A stretch of 64,000 nucleotides of DNA from Acidobacteria bacterium Ga0077534. Lineage in GTDB: Bacteria > Acidobacteriota > Blastocatellia > Pyrinomonadales > Pyrinomonadaceae. Positions 25,544-30,615 of this stretch are shown piece by piece. Position 1 is the stretch's first letter. Every line of letters begins with the position of its first letter. The position numbers and the translations under genes are program-made. Under the pieces are notes generated by a model. It was not told where the DNA came from. It saw only the letters and a list, made by a program, of their open reading frames with translations, and did not search any database. The stretch is from contig LNEI01000012.1 of NCBI GenBank assembly GCA_001464455.1, forward strand, positions 62,001 to 126,000. The letters run 5' to 3'.

Positions 25544-27128
25544 CCGGAGCGAAGAGGCTGCTGCCCGGATCCTTGCCGGCCGAGCCTTTCCCGCGAAACC
25601 TGCTGCCTGCACCAAGCCGAAAGTTCTTTTCAGCCGCGTTCTCGAAACCTATTTCATCGAGAGTCGGTACGAGTTGATTGCCCTCGGGGAAGGCGAAATC
25701 GCTGTTGGGGACGCGGTTGAGATTCATTATCAGGTTGTTCCTGATCATCGAACGTGCAGAAGCACCTCTCGTGTCGATGCCGTGAAAGCCGTAGTCGCCG
25801 TGGTTTACGATATTGTCGCGGAAGGCGAATGACTTCGGCGGCGTGCCGTAGAAAATGATAACGCTGCCCGAGTTGAACGAGGTGTTATTGGCGATCGTTA
25901 TCCCTTCGCCGTCGGCGACCTGTATCAGATAGCCTTTTCCGATAAACCCTTTACTGCCTGAGATATTCAGGAACAGATTATTCTCGATCGTCAGGTTTTT
26001 AAGCGTCTGGCTTGGGTAAGTGTCGTCTTTGCCGAGGATGTTGATGCCGTCGCCCGAGCCGTCGATCACGTTGTCTTTGATAACGGTGTCTTCGATCGTG
26101 GAGAATGTCGCTTTGCCATCCTGATTTCGTACGGTTATCCGAAACGCCGAGCCTTCCCAGTTGTTTCGTAGGTAATTCCCGACAAACTGCACCCGTTTTG
26201 AGTTCTTTAGCTCGAAAAGGGTCTTGACCGTCACGCCCGTGCGCCATGCTTCGGGTTTGTTGAGTTCGTTTCCGCGGATCTCGATGTCCGAAGGGATCAG
26301 GTCGACGCTGTCCGGGTCGGCACCGCCGAACATTATGTTTTCGGCTCCGCCCTCGATGTAATTGTTGATGATCTTGATGTTACGCGTGCCGGTCCAGCCG
26401 CAGATGCCCTGCGTTTCTTCCTGCGCGTAGGCAAAGCCCTCGATGTAGCTGTTGGTGATAACGGTATCGGCGCTGTTAAGAGCGATACCGCGTCGCACCT
26501 TACCCTTCGAACGGTTTGAGGTAATGTAAGACCGGTCGATCTCGAGGTGATGCGGCAGGTTTGCCGAGGTTTCGCCGTTTCCTAGCTGGATCAGGCCGTA
26601 ATTGTAGGCGGGGCCTGACGAGACGAATTCGATACCGACGAACCGGTAATGGTGAGCTCCCTTTACCGCCGAGACCGCCGGGCGGCCGAGCATTCCGGCC
26701 GTGATCGTGGCCATCGACGAACGCTGCGCAGGCGAGACGCGCTGGCCCTCGGGCAGTTTGTCGGCGGCAGACGAGCGGATGGTAACAAAATCGGTGTGCG
26801 GTTTATTTGGCAGCGTGATCGTGCCTGGATAGACCGCTCCGGCCTGAAGCTCCACGATGTCGCCGCTCTGTGCGATCTCCAATGCCGATTGTACGTTCCC
26901 GCCCGGCGGCACCTTGATCACACGCCCCGCCGAAGTGGCCTCGATCGTTGGCTGCTCCCAAAACAAGCCAAACTGATCATAATTCCACTCATACGCCGCC
27001 GCCCCTAAAGCGAGCGTTGTAATTAATAAGGCCGCGATCGCCCCCACGAGCAAACGCCCGAGCGGCCTCTTTTTAACGTTCTTCTGTTTTACTCTTACCG
27101 AATTCACTACTATTGTCTCATTCACCAT
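25536..27128 (-). CDS. membrane-anchored right-handed beta-helix protein
   Basis: A 530-aa protein with one N-terminal hydrophobic helix (GRLLVGAIAALLITTLALGAAAY, about residues 24-46) that works as a signal anchor, placing the rest outside the membrane. From about residue 70 it starts with the pectate-lyase-type GGNVQSALEIAQSGDIVELQAG strand. Many NN-type coils follow (IINNYIEGG, IENNLFLNIS, IANNTSFNSG, IRNNLIMNL), which mark a parallel beta-helix. Proteins of this shape are polysaccharide lyases, epimerases or mannuronan-type modifying enzymes. It opposes the polysaccharide operon and probably acts on its product. Its first 56 codons are duplicated at 27732-27902. Confidence 0.82.
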   Translation of the reverse strand: MVNETIVVNSVRVKQKNVKKRPLGRLLVGAIAALLITTLALGAAAYEWNYDQFGLFWEQPTIEATSAGRVIKVPPGGNVQSALEIAQSGDIVELQAGAVYPGTITLPNKPHTDFVTIRSSAADKLPEGQRVSPAQRSSMATITAGMLGRPAVSAVKGAHHYRFVGIEFVSSGPAYNYGLIQLGNGETSANLPHHLEIDRSYITSNRSKGKVRRGIALNSADTVITNSYIEGFAYAQEETQGICGWTGTRNIKIINNYIEGGAENIMFGGADPDSVDLIPSDIEIRGNELNKPEAWRTGVTVKTLFELKNSKRVQFVGNYLRNNWEGSAFRITVRNQDGKATFSTIEDTVIKDNVIDGSGDGINILGKDDTYPSQTLKNLTIENNLFLNISGSKGFIGKGYLIQVADGEGITIANNTSFNSGSVIIFYGTPPKSFAFRDNIVNHGDYGFHGIDTRGASARSMIRNNLIMNLNRVPNSDFAFPEGNQLVPTLDEIGFENAAEKNFRLGAGSRFRGKGSAGKDPGSSLFAPAR

Positions 27129-27614
27129 ACAGTAATAGTTCTAAAACCCAGCAAAATCCTGTTAACTGCGGCGCCAACGCGGCATTTGACCGCTCCGTCA
27201 AGCCGTTCCACTTCGCTGCTGAAAGTGGAACGACCTAAGTGTATTGTCACGTTACACTTACGGCGAAAAATCGTTCCACTTGCAGAAAAGCCTTTACCTG
27301 GAGATGGAACGACGAGAACACTCGGCTTCGATATTCTAGTAGTGGGTGAGTTTGAATAATGATCGCCGTTGCCTTTAGGCAACGGTTGAGAAGTTTTAAC
27401 GCGCCTCTCCGCCAAAAGCCGACGCAGTCGGCTTTTGGCGGGAGCATCGATGAGAGAACTTCTAATCCCTCGGCTGAAGCCGCCGGCAATACATGATCAC
27501 TTTTTTGAAACAGACCCATTACCGATATTCTTCTTTCGTCGAACAAGATCTATGATATTCTGCGAATTGCACAGCTTAGTGAGCGTAACACGGATGCAAC
27601 AAAATGTCAAGAAA
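26959..27614. repeat. copy A of a ~656-bp direct duplication
   Basis: Bases 26959-27614 recur at 27733-28389 in the same orientation with a constant offset of 774-775 bases and high identity. Copy A contains the 5' end of the beta-helix gene and its whole upstream region. The upstream region holds four hairpins: 27204-27232 (cgttccactt/aagtggaacg), 27271-27313, 27366-27385 (ccgttgcc-ttta-ggcaacgg) and 27409-27441 (14-bp stem, cgcag loop). The 603-base non-coding stretch after 27128 is otherwise empty of genes; small frames in it are repeat-derived. Confidence 0.92.
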
Positions 27615-27651
27615 TAGACTGCAATTCCGTGTTCACGACCGAAGAGAAGAT

Positions 27652-27723
27652 GGGGTTAGTCATGCAAAATTACAATTATCAATCTATTCGCTTTTGGAAT
27701 TGCAAGATTGCATGACTGACCCC
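27652..27723. repeat. inverted-repeat element, intact copy 1
   Basis: The left arm starts ggggttagtcatgcaa and the right arm ends ttgcatgactgacccc; about 26 bases on each side pair around a short loop. It lies exactly between the two copies of the 656-bp duplication. Related copies are at 29114-29138 (one arm) and 29746-29828. It resembles a MITE or long palindrome. Confidence 0.75.
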
Positions 27724-27731
27724 TGTCCCTT

Positions 27732-27902
27732 TCAAAACAAGCCAAACTGATCATAATTCCACTCATACGCCGCCGCCCCTAAAGCGAGCGTTGCAAGTAA
27801 AAAGGCCGCGATCGCTCCCACGAGCAAACCCCCGAGCGGCCTCTTTTTAGCGTTCTTCTGTTTTACTCTTACCGAATTCACTAATATTGTCTCATTCACC
27901 AT
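27732..27902 (-). pseudogene. duplicated 5' fragment of the beta-helix gene
   Basis: A 56-codon copy of the start of the gene at 25536-27128, from its ATG through the signal anchor to NYDQFGLF, after which a TGA ends the frame at the edge of the duplication. A few substitutions separate it from the parent (for example LL-A-T for LI-T-T in the anchor). The fragment retains the parent's upstream sequence and would encode only a membrane peptide. It is best read as debris of the duplication. Confidence 0.85.
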
Positions 27903-28389
27903 ACAGTAATAGTTCTAAAACCCAGCAAAATCCTGTTAACTGCGGCGCCAACGAGGCATTTGACCGCTCCGTCAAGCCGTTCCACTTCGCTGCTGAAAGT
28001 GGAACGGCCTAATTGTAGTATTAACAAGTACTTACGGCGAAAAATCGTTCCACTTGCAGAAAAGCCTTTACCTAGAGGTGGAACGACGAGAACGGTCGGC
28101 TTCGATATTCTAGTAGTGGGTGAGTTTGAATTTTGATTGCCGTTGCCTTTAGGCAACGGTTGAAAAGTTCTAACGCGCATCTCCCGCCAAAAGCCGACGC
28201 AGTCGGCTTTTGGCGGGAGCATTGATGAGAGAACTTCTAATCCCTCGGCTGAAGCCAAGGGCAATACATGATCACTTTTTTGAAACAGACCCATTACCAA
28301 TATTCTTCTTTCGTCGCACAATGTTTATGATATTCTGAGAATTGCACGACTTAGTGAGCGTAGCACGGATGCAACAAAATGTCAAGAAA
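27733..28389. repeat. copy B of the ~656-bp direct duplication
   Basis: Second copy of 26959-27614. Its hairpins are as good or better than in copy A: gccgttccactt/aagtggaacggc (27976-28008, 12 bp), ccgttgcc-ttta-ggcaacgg (28140-28159) and a perfect 17-bp stem with a cgcag loop (28181-28219). The 650-base non-genic stretch 27903-28552 consists of this copy plus the RAYT-flanking hairpins. Confidence 0.92.
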
Positions 28390-28462
28390 AGATTCGAATC
28401 TGGTTTTGAATAACAGAACCCGAGGGTTGAACCGGATCTTCCCGTTCTGGCCCGCAGGTCTT

Positions 28463-28542
28463 GTCACCAAAGGTGACGAAAATCATAGCGTAGGGTGGAA
28501 CCCTACGTAACAAATAAAAAAGGAGCCGTCGCCATAGGTGAC
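28463..28542. repeat. REP-like hairpin cluster upstream of the RAYT gene
   Basis: Three hairpins, each with a 3-base loop: gtcacc-aaa-ggtgac (28463-28477), cgtagggt-gga-accctacg (28489-28507) and gtcgcc-ata-ggtgac (28528-28542). The third ends 10 bases before the transposase ATG and would enclose part of its leader. The first two recur in inverted order downstream of the gene. Confidence 0.75.
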
Positions 28543-28552
28543 GAACATCTTT

Positions 28553-29095
28553 ATGCCGCAGTCACTGGTAAGGGTATTGATACACGTGGTGTTTTCGACA
28601 AAGAATCGAGCGAATCTGATACTACCTGAGATCGAAAGCGGACTGTTTGGCTATATCCACGGCATTGTTGAAAACAATAAGTCCAAGCTGATCATCGCGA
28701 ACGGAACGATGAACCATATTCATTTGCTAATTTCGCTCGGCAGAACAATCGGCATCAGCGAATTGATCGGCGATATAAAACGCGACAGTTCGGTTTGGAT
28801 CAAGACGCAGGGAGATTTTCGTAACTTTTATTGGCAAGAGGGCTACGGTGCCTTTTCGATAGGACAGTCTCAGCTTCCCAAAGTTGTGCAATATATAAAA
28901 GGTCAAAAGGAGCATCACGCAGAAAGCGATTTCAAAACCGAATTCCGCAGCCTTTTGACGAGATATGAGGTCGAATACGACCAGCGTTATGTCTTAGATC
29001 GATGTTCGTCCCCGTCGGGGACGGATTCGTATACCGGGTGCTCGTCGGGTTTTACCCTACGCTATATTATCCGTCTCCTTTGGAGACAAAGATGA
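28553..29095 (+). CDS. REP-associated tyrosine transposase (RAYT, IS200/IS605 TnpA-like)
   Basis: Y1 HUH transposase of about 180 aa. The start at 28553 gives the family-typical MPQSLVRVLIHVVFSTKNR; a GTG at 28538 is less likely. The HUH motif is NHIHLLI (H55, H57), WQEGYGAFSIGQSQ follows, and the catalytic Tyr is Y114 in VVQYIKGQKEHH. Such single-domain enzymes cut and join single-stranded DNA at adjacent REP hairpins. The normal C-terminus (about YEVEYDQRYVLD) is followed by ~35 residues read from the flanking hairpin DNA, so the original stop has probably been lost. REP-like hairpins flank it in inverted orientation. No TnpB is present. Confidence 0.9.
   Translation: MPQSLVRVLIHVVFSTKNRANLILPEIESGLFGYIHGIVENNKSKLIIANGTMNHIHLLISLGRTIGISELIGDIKRDSSVWIKTQGDFRNFYWQEGYGAFSIGQSQLPKVVQYIKGQKEHHAESDFKTEFRSLLTRYEVEYDQRYVLDRCSSPSGTDSYTGCSSGFTLRYIIRLLWRQR
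29007..29087. repeat. REP-like hairpin cluster downstream of the RAYT gene
   Basis: Hairpins cgtcccc-gtc-ggggacg (29007-29023), gggt-ttt-accc followed by tacgctat, and gtctcc-ttt-ggagac (29073-29087). The order accctacgctat then gtctcc is the inverse of the upstream cluster (gtcacc then atagcgtagggt), so the gene sits between two inverted REP-like units. Part of this DNA is read as the transposase C-terminus. Confidence 0.72.
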
Positions 29096-29113
29096 GCGGT
29101 CAGCACGGTGAGA

Positions 29114-29138
29114 GTTGCAAGATTGCATGCCTGACCCC
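29114..29138. repeat. single arm of the inverted-repeat element
   Basis: gttgcaagattgcatgcctg followed by acccc matches the right arm of the element at 27652-27723. No clear left arm is present. A gene remnant begins directly after it. Confidence 0.65.
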
Positions 29139-29323
29139 CGAATCTACGCGGTCCGAAGTCTTCACCTACGATCGATGCTTCAGCACAAGCAAGACCGTAT
29201 CCGTCATATACGGGATATGCGTACACCTTAAATGATGATGGATCGGTAAACGTACAGCAATTGTTCCAACGGGATGAGACGGTGTACACAGATTTGCCCA
29301 AACCAAAGACAACCATTAAATAG
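29135..29323 (+). pseudogene. 3' remnant of a gene truncated by a repeat
   Basis: An open frame of about 62 codons that reads like the C-terminus of a real protein (IDASAQARPYPSYTGYAY, then TLNDDGSVNVQQLFQRDE) and ends at TAG 29321-29323. It has no usable start codon, and its 5' side runs straight into the inverted-repeat arm at 29114-29138, where an in-frame TGA lies. The lipoprotein gene starts one base after its stop, as expected for an operon partner. I do not recognise the family. The 5' part was probably removed by the repeat or RAYT rearrangement. Confidence 0.55.
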
Positions 29324-29324
29324 T

Positions 29325-29741
29325 ATGAGCCGCACTATAATCCGCATTTGCTTAATGATGGTCATCCTGATGACTGCCACATGGATAGTCACGTCATGTA
29401 CTTACCCCCGCGATGGACCGATTGAAAAATTGGGTGACCCATCGACAAAAAGTGGTCTAATAGTGTTCTTCAAACGAGGCTCGACTGCGGCGGAAATTTA
29501 TGACTTCGACCGATTTGTGATTTCCTCGCCGGATCAAGCGGGGCGAGGCTATCAGTCGCTTCCAGGCATCATTTCCGTGGTACGCTTTAATAGGAATGGT
29601 TTTGCTGGCAAGCAGATAGACTTCCGATTGAATGCAACGGCTGAGCAGAAGAAATACGTAAGGAGCCAAATAGAACAGTCGCCGATCGTACTGAGAATAT
29701 TTGAGGAGACCGCGTTGAACGACATTCCGGATTTGCGGTAG
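29325..29741 (+). CDS. small putative lipoprotein of unknown function
   Basis: About 138 aa. Start at ATG 29325 gives a lipoprotein signal peptide ending in IVTSC, with Cys25 as the lipidation site; an upstream in-frame start at 29274 would spoil this signal. The mature part is soluble, mixed alpha/beta, with no recognised domain. It follows directly after a truncated gene and precedes an inverted-repeat element, so it lies in the unstable part of the window. Confidence 0.6.
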   Translation: MSRTIIRICLMMVILMTATWIVTSCTYPRDGPIEKLGDPSTKSGLIVFFKRGSTAAEIYDFDRFVISSPDQAGRGYQSLPGIISVVRFNRNGFAGKQIDFRLNATAEQKKYVRSQIEQSPIVLRIFEETALNDIPDLR

Positions 29742-29745
29742 GAAA

Positions 29746-29828
29746 GGGCCAGTCATGCAATATTACAATTCTTTCCAGCCCTGCATGGAGGATGAGAAAG
29801 AAGTGTGCAATCTTGCTTGACTGACCCC
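29746..29828. repeat. inverted-repeat element, intact copy 2
   Basis: The left arm gggccagtcatgcaatatta and a right arm ending in ttgcttgactgacccc enclose a ~30-base centre. Related to 27652-27723. It begins five bases after the lipoprotein stop. Confidence 0.7.
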
Positions 29829-29852
29829 AAATAGCTTCGGATATCACCGACA

Positions 29853-30260
29853 ATGAGTAGCATTCTCAACACAATAGCCACGGGTTACCGGTACTTTTTC
29901 TATCGAGCTTATTCGTGGCAGTTAGGGGTTTTCGGTAAAGACGATGTTCCCGAATTCACCGGAGTGATTACGATATCGTTGTGTGGTTTCCTAAACGCTA
30001 TTACAGTTTTCTTGCTTGTCCAGATTGTCTCAGGTGTCTTGATGAGCATCGAGACCGAAATCATCGTTTTGTTTATAATTGTGCTCTTTGGAATAAACTA
30101 CACTTTGCTGGTGGGACGCGGACAGCTTGAGTCGATTTCCTTACAGTTTGCTCAGGAAAATTCAAAGGAGAGACGAAGGGGAACCATTTTTTGCATAACC
30201 TACGTTGCCCTATCGTGTCTCCTTTTTGTGTCAGCAGGACTCGTGCGAAATGGAATGTGA
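29853..30260 (+). CDS. small membrane protein of unknown function
   Basis: A 135-aa protein with three hydrophobic segments (about residues 36-62, 68-88 and 112-130) and a short charged stretch, QENSKERRRG, between the second and third. No domain is recognised. The ribosome-binding site is weak. It lies just downstream of an inverted-repeat element in the accessory region, and its product could be a membrane partner of the neighbouring lipoprotein, but nothing shows this. Confidence 0.5.
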   Translation: MSSILNTIATGYRYFFYRAYSWQLGVFGKDDVPEFTGVITISLCGFLNAITVFLLVQIVSGVLMSIETEIIVLFIIVLFGINYTLLVGRGQLESISLQFAQENSKERRRGTIFCITYVALSCLLFVSAGLVRNGM

Positions 30261-30349
30261 GTGGGTAAGCCAATCGTGGTCGACAACATCAAAACCGATA
30301 AGAATGGTACTGAACGGTTTCAACAATAAATCACGGCCTCACGGTATTT

Positions 30350-30615
30350 ATGTATACCGTGAATCTGCATGAGCTTATAGATCGATTTGGCAGTCAGTCG
30401 CCGCGCACGAAGACCGTGGCGTTTCTGGCATTTGGTGCCGTGATCATCGCGGTCCTGCTTTTTGTTTTCTATCTCGGCGTAACCAAAGGCGATTCTTCTG
30501 GGCCGAATCAAAATACCTCAAGCAGCGTGACGAAAACCTGATCCGGGCCACAAAAGCCGAGGCCGAACAACGGCGCCTTGCAGGCGTCAACGATCTGCTC
30601 AAAAAGCAAAACTAA
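30350..30615 (+). pseudogene. frameshifted gene for a membrane-anchored coiled-coil protein
   Basis: The first frame (from ATG 30350) gives a basic N-terminus and one transmembrane helix (VAFLAFGAVIIAVLLFVFYLG), then runs into a Ser/Asn-rich tail and TGA. In another frame the sequence continues as heptad-like coiled coil (SKYLKQRDENLIRATKAEAE, then RRLAGVNDLLKKQN) to TAA 30613-30615, and beyond that stop as DLATERDKAGAKL. An intact ancestor with a helix plus coiled coil is the simplest reading, broken by a frameshift near 30495-30512 and a later stop. A hairpin (30340-30361) encloses the ATG. The end abuts the convergent dinD gene. Confidence 0.55.

Follow-up and report, generated by a model that had tools for sequence, protein, structure and literature searches.

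Positions 28463–29087 of the window (the whole stretch of 64,000 nucleotides analysed here, G000:C12:62001-126000 of a 4.2-Mb genome that is 97.9% complete) probably form a REPtron/TIRtron-like mobile element with a Y1 transposase of subclass 1.2 and gene-less derivatives, a reading to which we assign a probability of about 70% (Table 1). Comparison with related genomes revealed a bounded unit, hairpins that are conserved and covary, gene-less pairs of the same units, a joint distribution of gene and unit, and agreement between hairpin word and enzyme lineage. We favour the subclass 1.2 reading because of a three-hairpin array at 47 of 60 ends, its covariation, 23 gene-less pairs and bounded homology, to which are added a unit-free syntenic place in three relatives, a fold nearest to IS608 and ISDra2, and an array on a Bacteroidota plasmid.

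Table 1 Coordinates of the element and its parts, in window positions
Feature	Position	Strand	Description
Whole element	28463-29087	.	625 bp, gene between two inverted end units
Left end unit	28463-28549	+	Top hit of the R1 model, though part of the R1 training set
Left H1	28463-28477	+	GTCACC-AAA-GGTGAC
Left foot ATAG	28485-28488	+	
Left H2	28489-28507	+	CGTAGGGT-GGA-ACCCTACG
Left H3	28528-28542	+	GTCGCC-ATA-GGTGAC, then GAACATC
Y1 (HUH) transposase gene, subclass 1.2 type	28553-29095	+	Pfam Y1_Tnp
Right end unit, inverted	29001-29087	-	Overlaps the read-through part of the gene
Right H3	29008-29022	-	GTCCCC-GTC-GGGGAC
Right H2	29043-29061	-	One mismatch
Right H1	29073-29087	-	GTCTCC-TTT-GGAGAC

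Read from outside to inside, both arms show the same series, namely H1, 11 nt ending in ATAG, H2, 20 nt, H3 and GAACATC, with the consensus GTCNCC-N3-GGNGAC for H1, CGTAGGGT-N3-ACCCTACG for H2 and GTC(G/C)CC-N3-GG(T/G)GAC for H3. The sequence-only reading had described hairpins flanking the Y1 gene in inverted order and with shared sequence, and they were found where it placed them; its third upstream hairpin likewise ends 10 bases short of the start codon, counted from the ATG at 28553. An inverted-repeat search returned a 47-nt repeat (28461–28507 versus 29043–29089, 81% complementary), and, read by eye, the colinear match extends beyond this repeat through the third hairpin on each side, which sets the arms at 28463–28549 and 29001–29087, 87 bases each. 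Folded as single-stranded DNA into the three hairpins, the left arm on the + strand reached z -6.27 and the right arm on the - strand z -3.13, with none of 200 shuffles as stable in either case; the opposite strands folded slightly worse (left z -5.50, 0/200 shuffles; right z -2.57, 1/200).

The gene between the arms matches Pfam Y1_Tnp with an E value of 5.1e-23. The listed frame opens at GTG 28538, and the true start is most likely the ATG at 28553, as in relatives. Residues 1–149 (28553–28999) constitute the conserved protein and the remainder is read-through of the right end: the stop codon that directly follows the conserved C-terminus in 29 of 29 other loci is absent from the window copy, which is why its frame crosses the right-hand hairpins, with 31 extra residues translated from the right arm. 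The predicted fold has a mean pLDDT of 73.7, falling below 50 at residues 142–180. Residues H55, H57, Q95, Y114, Q118 and H122 are invariant across the 30 rows of a protein alignment that excludes L028 and L053. The Y motif is YIKGQKEHH in the window and conforms to Y---Q--HH in 32 of 33 loci, L056 having Y---Q--RH; the HuH motif of the window is NHIH (N for D), with DHVH, DHIH, NHIH and NHVH in relatives where the pattern matched; and the WQ of the W motif is present. Among named proteins, the closest relatives come from metagenome-assembled genomes (MAGs) labelled as Blastocatellia (75% identity), Acidobacteria (67%) and Pyrinomonadaceae (72%).

Quentin et al. 2018 (PMC6006769) assign Y---Q--HH, a HuH motif DH[IV]H, WQ and a median length of 148 residues to TnpAY1 subclass 1.2, and the passages of that paper on which we draw describe the subclass as low-copy, without REPs or insertion-sequence properties, and mostly from Cyanobacteria and Bacteroidetes. 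By motif the predicted enzyme, with 149 residues to its conserved end, is a TnpAY1 of subclass 1.2, closer to IS200/IS605 TnpA than to RAYTs. The window element resembles that subclass in Y---Q--HH, WQ, a length of ~148 residues and low copy number, and departs from the 2018 description, in which REPs and terminal structures do not figure, in its structured ends, its gene-less kin and its occurrence in Acidobacteriota; their absence belongs to the paper's description of the subclass and is not a sequence criterion for it. Searches of an open-access library turned up no previous account of structured ends for this subclass.

The limits of the element recur among its relatives. When window positions 27000–30500 were compared with 12 relatives' loci, the longest match started at 28456–28463 in 9, ended at 29087–29091 in 9 and did both in 7; L027 extends to 29108, and L044, L047, L049 and L051 are only partly covered by the longest piece. 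The element is thus bounded, homology to relatives mostly beginning and ending at H1. The ends were then compared across 33 loci, consisting of the window's own, three GTDB loci and 29 from the best matches among 119 family genomes, these 29 being the loci returned for best matches and so a subset of all matches. The three-hairpin array (score of at least 45) occurs at 53 of 66 ends, or at 47 of the 60 distinct ends once L041, L045 and L048, which repeat L026, L027 and L028, are excluded from the end alignment and the tree, and at 0 of 660 shuffled sequences. Thirteen of the 66 ends scored below 45 and were left unaligned, so that the alignment is selected by pairing score, with the shuffles as its control.

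Across the 47 aligned ends, 98.7% of 940 cells are paired and 118 of the 940, distributed over 13 of 20 pairs, carry two-sided changes, values that 0 of 500 shuffles reach, with the proviso that admission by pairing score favours pairing and that, the sequences being related, shuffle counts are not probabilities. The foot before H2 is ATAG at 27 of these ends, AAAG at 18, ATAA at one and AAAA at one. H2 itself varies in its word among relatives (CGTAGGGT, CCTAGGGT, CCCGGCGT, CCCAGCGA, CACAGGGT and others), each occurring with its complement. Between the two ends of one element, H2 words agree at 7.1 of 8 positions, compared with 6.1 of 8 between elements, as measured on the 20 elements represented by both ends; none of 10,000 permutations matched this. 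CGT-type versus CC-type words require 3 changes on a tree of 29 enzymes in which good support is confined to 7 of 26 inner branches, against 8.6–8.7 changes when shuffled (0 of 500 as low); this tree excludes L053, which has an internal stop, and places L028, the start of which is frame-shifted, on a long branch. Read from outside to inside, G.T pairs outnumber A.C pairs by 16 to 2 at left ends and by 15 to 2 at right ends, with a pooled sign test of 3.5e-6 that exaggerates how independent the counts are, since related ends inherit the same variants. The bias suggests that the top strand is the one whose pairing is maintained at left ends, and the bottom strand at right ends, as in a REP and an inverted REP.

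The same units occur without a gene. R1, a model trained solely on gene-flanking ends, the window's two included, identified 58 half units in the own genome at E <= 0.01, two of which are the window's own ends. These resolve into 24 inverted pairs, one of them enclosing the gene, and 10 others; the remaining 23 pairs are gene-less, with 7–14 nt between halves and a total of 203–261 bp, as against 453 bp between the halves of the window pair. Context, flanks and words were analysed for 20 of the 23; in 19 of these no open frame of at least 90 codons extends across the copy, and in one a 104-codon frame does. Identity among these copies averages 69% (best pair 85%), which argues against a recent burst. 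The H2 position is occupied by CCTAGGGT in 30 of 40 halves and by one- to two-base variants in the others, and CGTAGGGT is found in 0 of 20 copies; the gene-less copies are thus related to the window element as sisters and do not descend from it. Ten places in the own genome match Y1_Tnp, and the DNA around the nine other than the window's contains neither CCTAGGGT nor CGTAGGGT, which implies either that the cognate gene is absent from the assembly or that an enzyme of another word acts on the gene-less copies. Separately, the outer flanks of the gene-less copies favour T, T and C at -5 to -3 before H1 (26, 24 and 25 of 40), and the element may accordingly be a few bases longer, or these bases may reflect a target preference.

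A genome-wide search for the two hairpin words, suggested by the sequence-only reading, gave a divided answer. GTCNCCNNNGGNGAC is repeated, with 45 sites of which 4 lie within the element (reversed control, 1), whereas CGTAGGGT-N3-ACCCTACG, searched with up to two mismatches as a pattern that sees 3-nt loops only, is confined to the element's two sites (reversed control, 3) and was, by count alone, rejected as a repeat family, with two arms only. The expectation of REP/REPIN substrates holds for the conserved units and the gene-less inverted pairs, but these pairs carry the sister word. A DNA similarity search detected no second copy of the element in the own genome, and the window copy looks aged, having lost its stop, acquired a mismatch in the right H2 and being without a sister copy that bears its word.

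One gene-less copy has a unit-free counterpart in relatives. In G073, G047 and G062, blocks carrying a DnaC/DnaI-like ATPase gene (so named from family matches below their cut-offs) and deoC lie 58, 50 and 60 bp apart, and in the own genome the corresponding query positions are ~390–410 bp apart, with the gene-less unit C13:108448 between them. The last query position of the unit is 1107, and alignment resumes at 1108, 1112 and 1109 in G073, G047 and G062, respectively; this places the insertion point exactly on that side but not on the other, where the own genome has an extra tandem repeat. In the own genome (G000:C13, L099 ~1266–1389), a ~43-bp tandem repeat around AAAGCCCGCGCGTAAGCAAGGGCG lies directly left of the gene-less copy and is missing in the three relatives. 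In other genus genomes the two blocks are not so close together among the matches listed. No movement was seen, and target duplication or the cut site is unreadable from these sequences. A candidate empty site at C15:58690 was rejected, the right-hand gene not being found in two relatives with the left-hand gene; another hairpin element was seen in one of the two relatives compared there. L101 (G049) contains a ~210-bp hairpin element with another word (GCACC-AAC-GGTGC, CCAGGGGC) after a gene, and in L102 (G050) the next gene follows almost directly at the place where L101 holds this element.

Gene and unit are also jointly distributed. In the family, units occur in 64 of 71 genomes with the gene versus 19 of 48 without it (gene E <= 1e-30, R1 E <= 1e-5; Fisher p 7e-9, which ignores relatedness and incomplete assemblies); because the R1 family scan scored at most 34 candidates per genome, presence or absence alone was used. 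Among 32 hand-chosen genomes of the phylum, units were found in 7 of 14 gene-bearing versus 1 of 18 gene-free genomes (p 0.01), and two phylum genomes of another class yielded 86 and 90 R1 hits. The flanks of more distant genes were tested at 18 genes in 18 genomes (three in the family), picked from 30 returned loci: 14 of 36 ends pass the array threshold and 22 fail, with 10 of 30 passing outside the family, compared with 0 of 360 shuffles and 0 of 35 stretches ~1 kb away. These flanks contain 51 hairpins with 6 bp or more, compared with 6.9 in shuffles and 13 in distant stretches; for 13 of the 18 flank pairs, the inverted-repeat score lies above the 95th percentile of cross-locus scores. 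Of three Bacteroidota loci tested, a Persicobacter plasmid gene is flanked on either side by the array, with scores of 50.6 and 45.1; those in Bernardetia and Dyadobacter did not pass the array threshold.

The alternative that survives best, which we nevertheless consider unlikely, is an IS200/IS605-type insertion sequence that transposes as a complete unit and from which the gene-less pairs would have arisen by ordinary deletion. Such a sequence would share with the window element a class 1 enzyme and a bounded unit, and the nearest solved folds are indeed the TnpA proteins of ISDra2 and IS608 (E 5e-9), with TnpAREP at rank 30 (E 6.9e-6); by sequence, the matches from the Protein Data Bank (PDB), to IS200/IS605 transposases, were all weak (best E 0.0059). 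The ends of IS200/IS605 elements fold on one strand, and these elements transpose as single-stranded DNA by way of a circle. Their transposition is strand-specific, according to the account in PMC8266576, and their TnpA belongs to subclass 1.1. The window element, on the other hand, has Y---Q--HH and three-hairpin inverted-repeat ends in which the G.T pairs indicate a different strand at each end, it is single-copy in its own genome, and several genomes contain many more gene-less units than genes. No tnpB-sized frame lies directly beside the gene among the listed open reading frames.

Much less probable is domestication, in which a single-copy enzyme is retained, the hairpin repeats serve the host and there is little present movement. 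The single gene copy and the diverged (69% mean identity), intergenic gene-less units are in keeping with it, but patchy presence, differing neighbourhoods and the unit-free syntenic place in three relatives argue against it.

We give marginally less credence still to a true RAYT (class 2 TnpAREP) with a cognate REP/REPIN population, although the element shares with REPtrons the inverted hairpin units around the gene, a 5' foot tetranucleotide with the hairpins, and gene-less inverted pairs in the genome, which here carry a sister word. Class 2, to which the RAYTs belong, is marked by Y---NP and by REPs with GT[AG]G feet (PMC6006769); here the motif is Y---Q--HH and the foot ATAG/AAAG, each unit has three hairpins, the pairs measure ~210 bp, TnpAREP stands far down the fold ranking, and the element's own hairpin word has no further copies in the genome. 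On motif, foot and fold ranking we therefore drop the RAYT label of the sequence-only reading and retain the REPtron comparison. Least credible of all is that the hairpins act at the RNA level only, in translation control or termination: H3 ends 8–14 nt upstream of the start codon in 17 of 23 loci, but the same array lies on the opposite strand behind the stop codon and in gene-less units, and G.T is kept on the antisense strand at right ends, so that control of translation by the third hairpin, as proposed earlier, may contribute and is unlikely to be its main function.

The nearest published arrangement is the TIRtron with its TIRYT gene (Di Nocera et al. 2013, PMC3733652), described there as a Y1 gene between inverted repeats that has repeated genomic relatives, with repeats that are sometimes double palindromes and examples in Acidobacteria. 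The two arms of the window element likewise place a Y1 gene between terminal inverted repeats. The 26 TIRtron enzymes are all class 2 according to PMC6006769 (20 in 2.1; 6 in 2.2 and 2.5), in contrast to the class 1 enzyme and triple hairpins of the window element. GGGGWSAS, shared by many TIRs (PMC3733652), is absent from the arms of the window element; GGGGTCAG, found around the element, fits this motif of the TIRs of TIRYT genes.

Other repeats lie near the element or at other Y1 loci. Stretches 27000–27614 and 27774–28389 form a tandem repeat ~775 bp apart with 94% identity and hold long perfect hairpins (an 18-bp stem CTCCCGCCAAAAGCCGAC; CCGTTGCC-ttta-GGCAACGG). The GGGGTCAGTCATGCAATNTTGCAA repeat has five copies, at 27652–27675, 27700–27723, 29115–29138, 29745–29768 and 29805–29828 (up to 3 mismatches; 0 expected). 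A search of 26500–30500 against Rfam gave one match (mir-19), at the inverted pair 27648–27727, far below the cut-off and off the element, which is surely chance. By eye, the own-genome Y1 genes at C18:293719 (L023), C27:250937 (L036), C17:80893 (L037), C27:149040 (L039) and C19:211926 (L040) are flanked by inverted hairpins or palindromes that differ in word from those of the window element, and at L023 hairpins are listed on both sides of the gene.

Under the preferred reading as a subclass 1.2 element, the enzyme would act on single-stranded DNA, recognize the end unit, most likely through H2 with its ATAG/AAAG foot (present at 45 of 47 ends), which would also serve as guide, and cut and rejoin near the outer edges of the element. 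The gene-less pairs would be non-autonomous relatives, moved in trans by enzymes of the subclass 1.2 kind. Against this stand the gene-less word of the own genome, which has no matching gene among the Y1 genes found, the presence of units in 19 gene-free family genomes and their absence from 7 gene-bearing ones, and the lack of units in half (7 of 14) of the gene-bearing genomes from elsewhere in the phylum.

More tentatively, and with rather more doubt than confidence, we raise the idea that IS200/IS605 and REPtrons are joined by another, third kind of Y1 element. Its class 1 (subclass 1.2) enzyme would recognize a composite three-hairpin unit folded on opposite strands at the two ends, and would be accompanied by such ends in at least two phyla and by gene-less ~210-bp pairs in Acidobacteriota. 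If so, the IS200 side, and not the RAYT side alone, gave rise to REPIN-like repeats. Subclass 1.2 transposases are without a known substrate in the literature covered, and the conserved end unit is a candidate. If confirmed, REPIN-like gene-less families would exist around two Y1 branches, which bears on the origins of REPs, and the element would explain the hairpin-rich intergenic unit family in the window's bacterial family.
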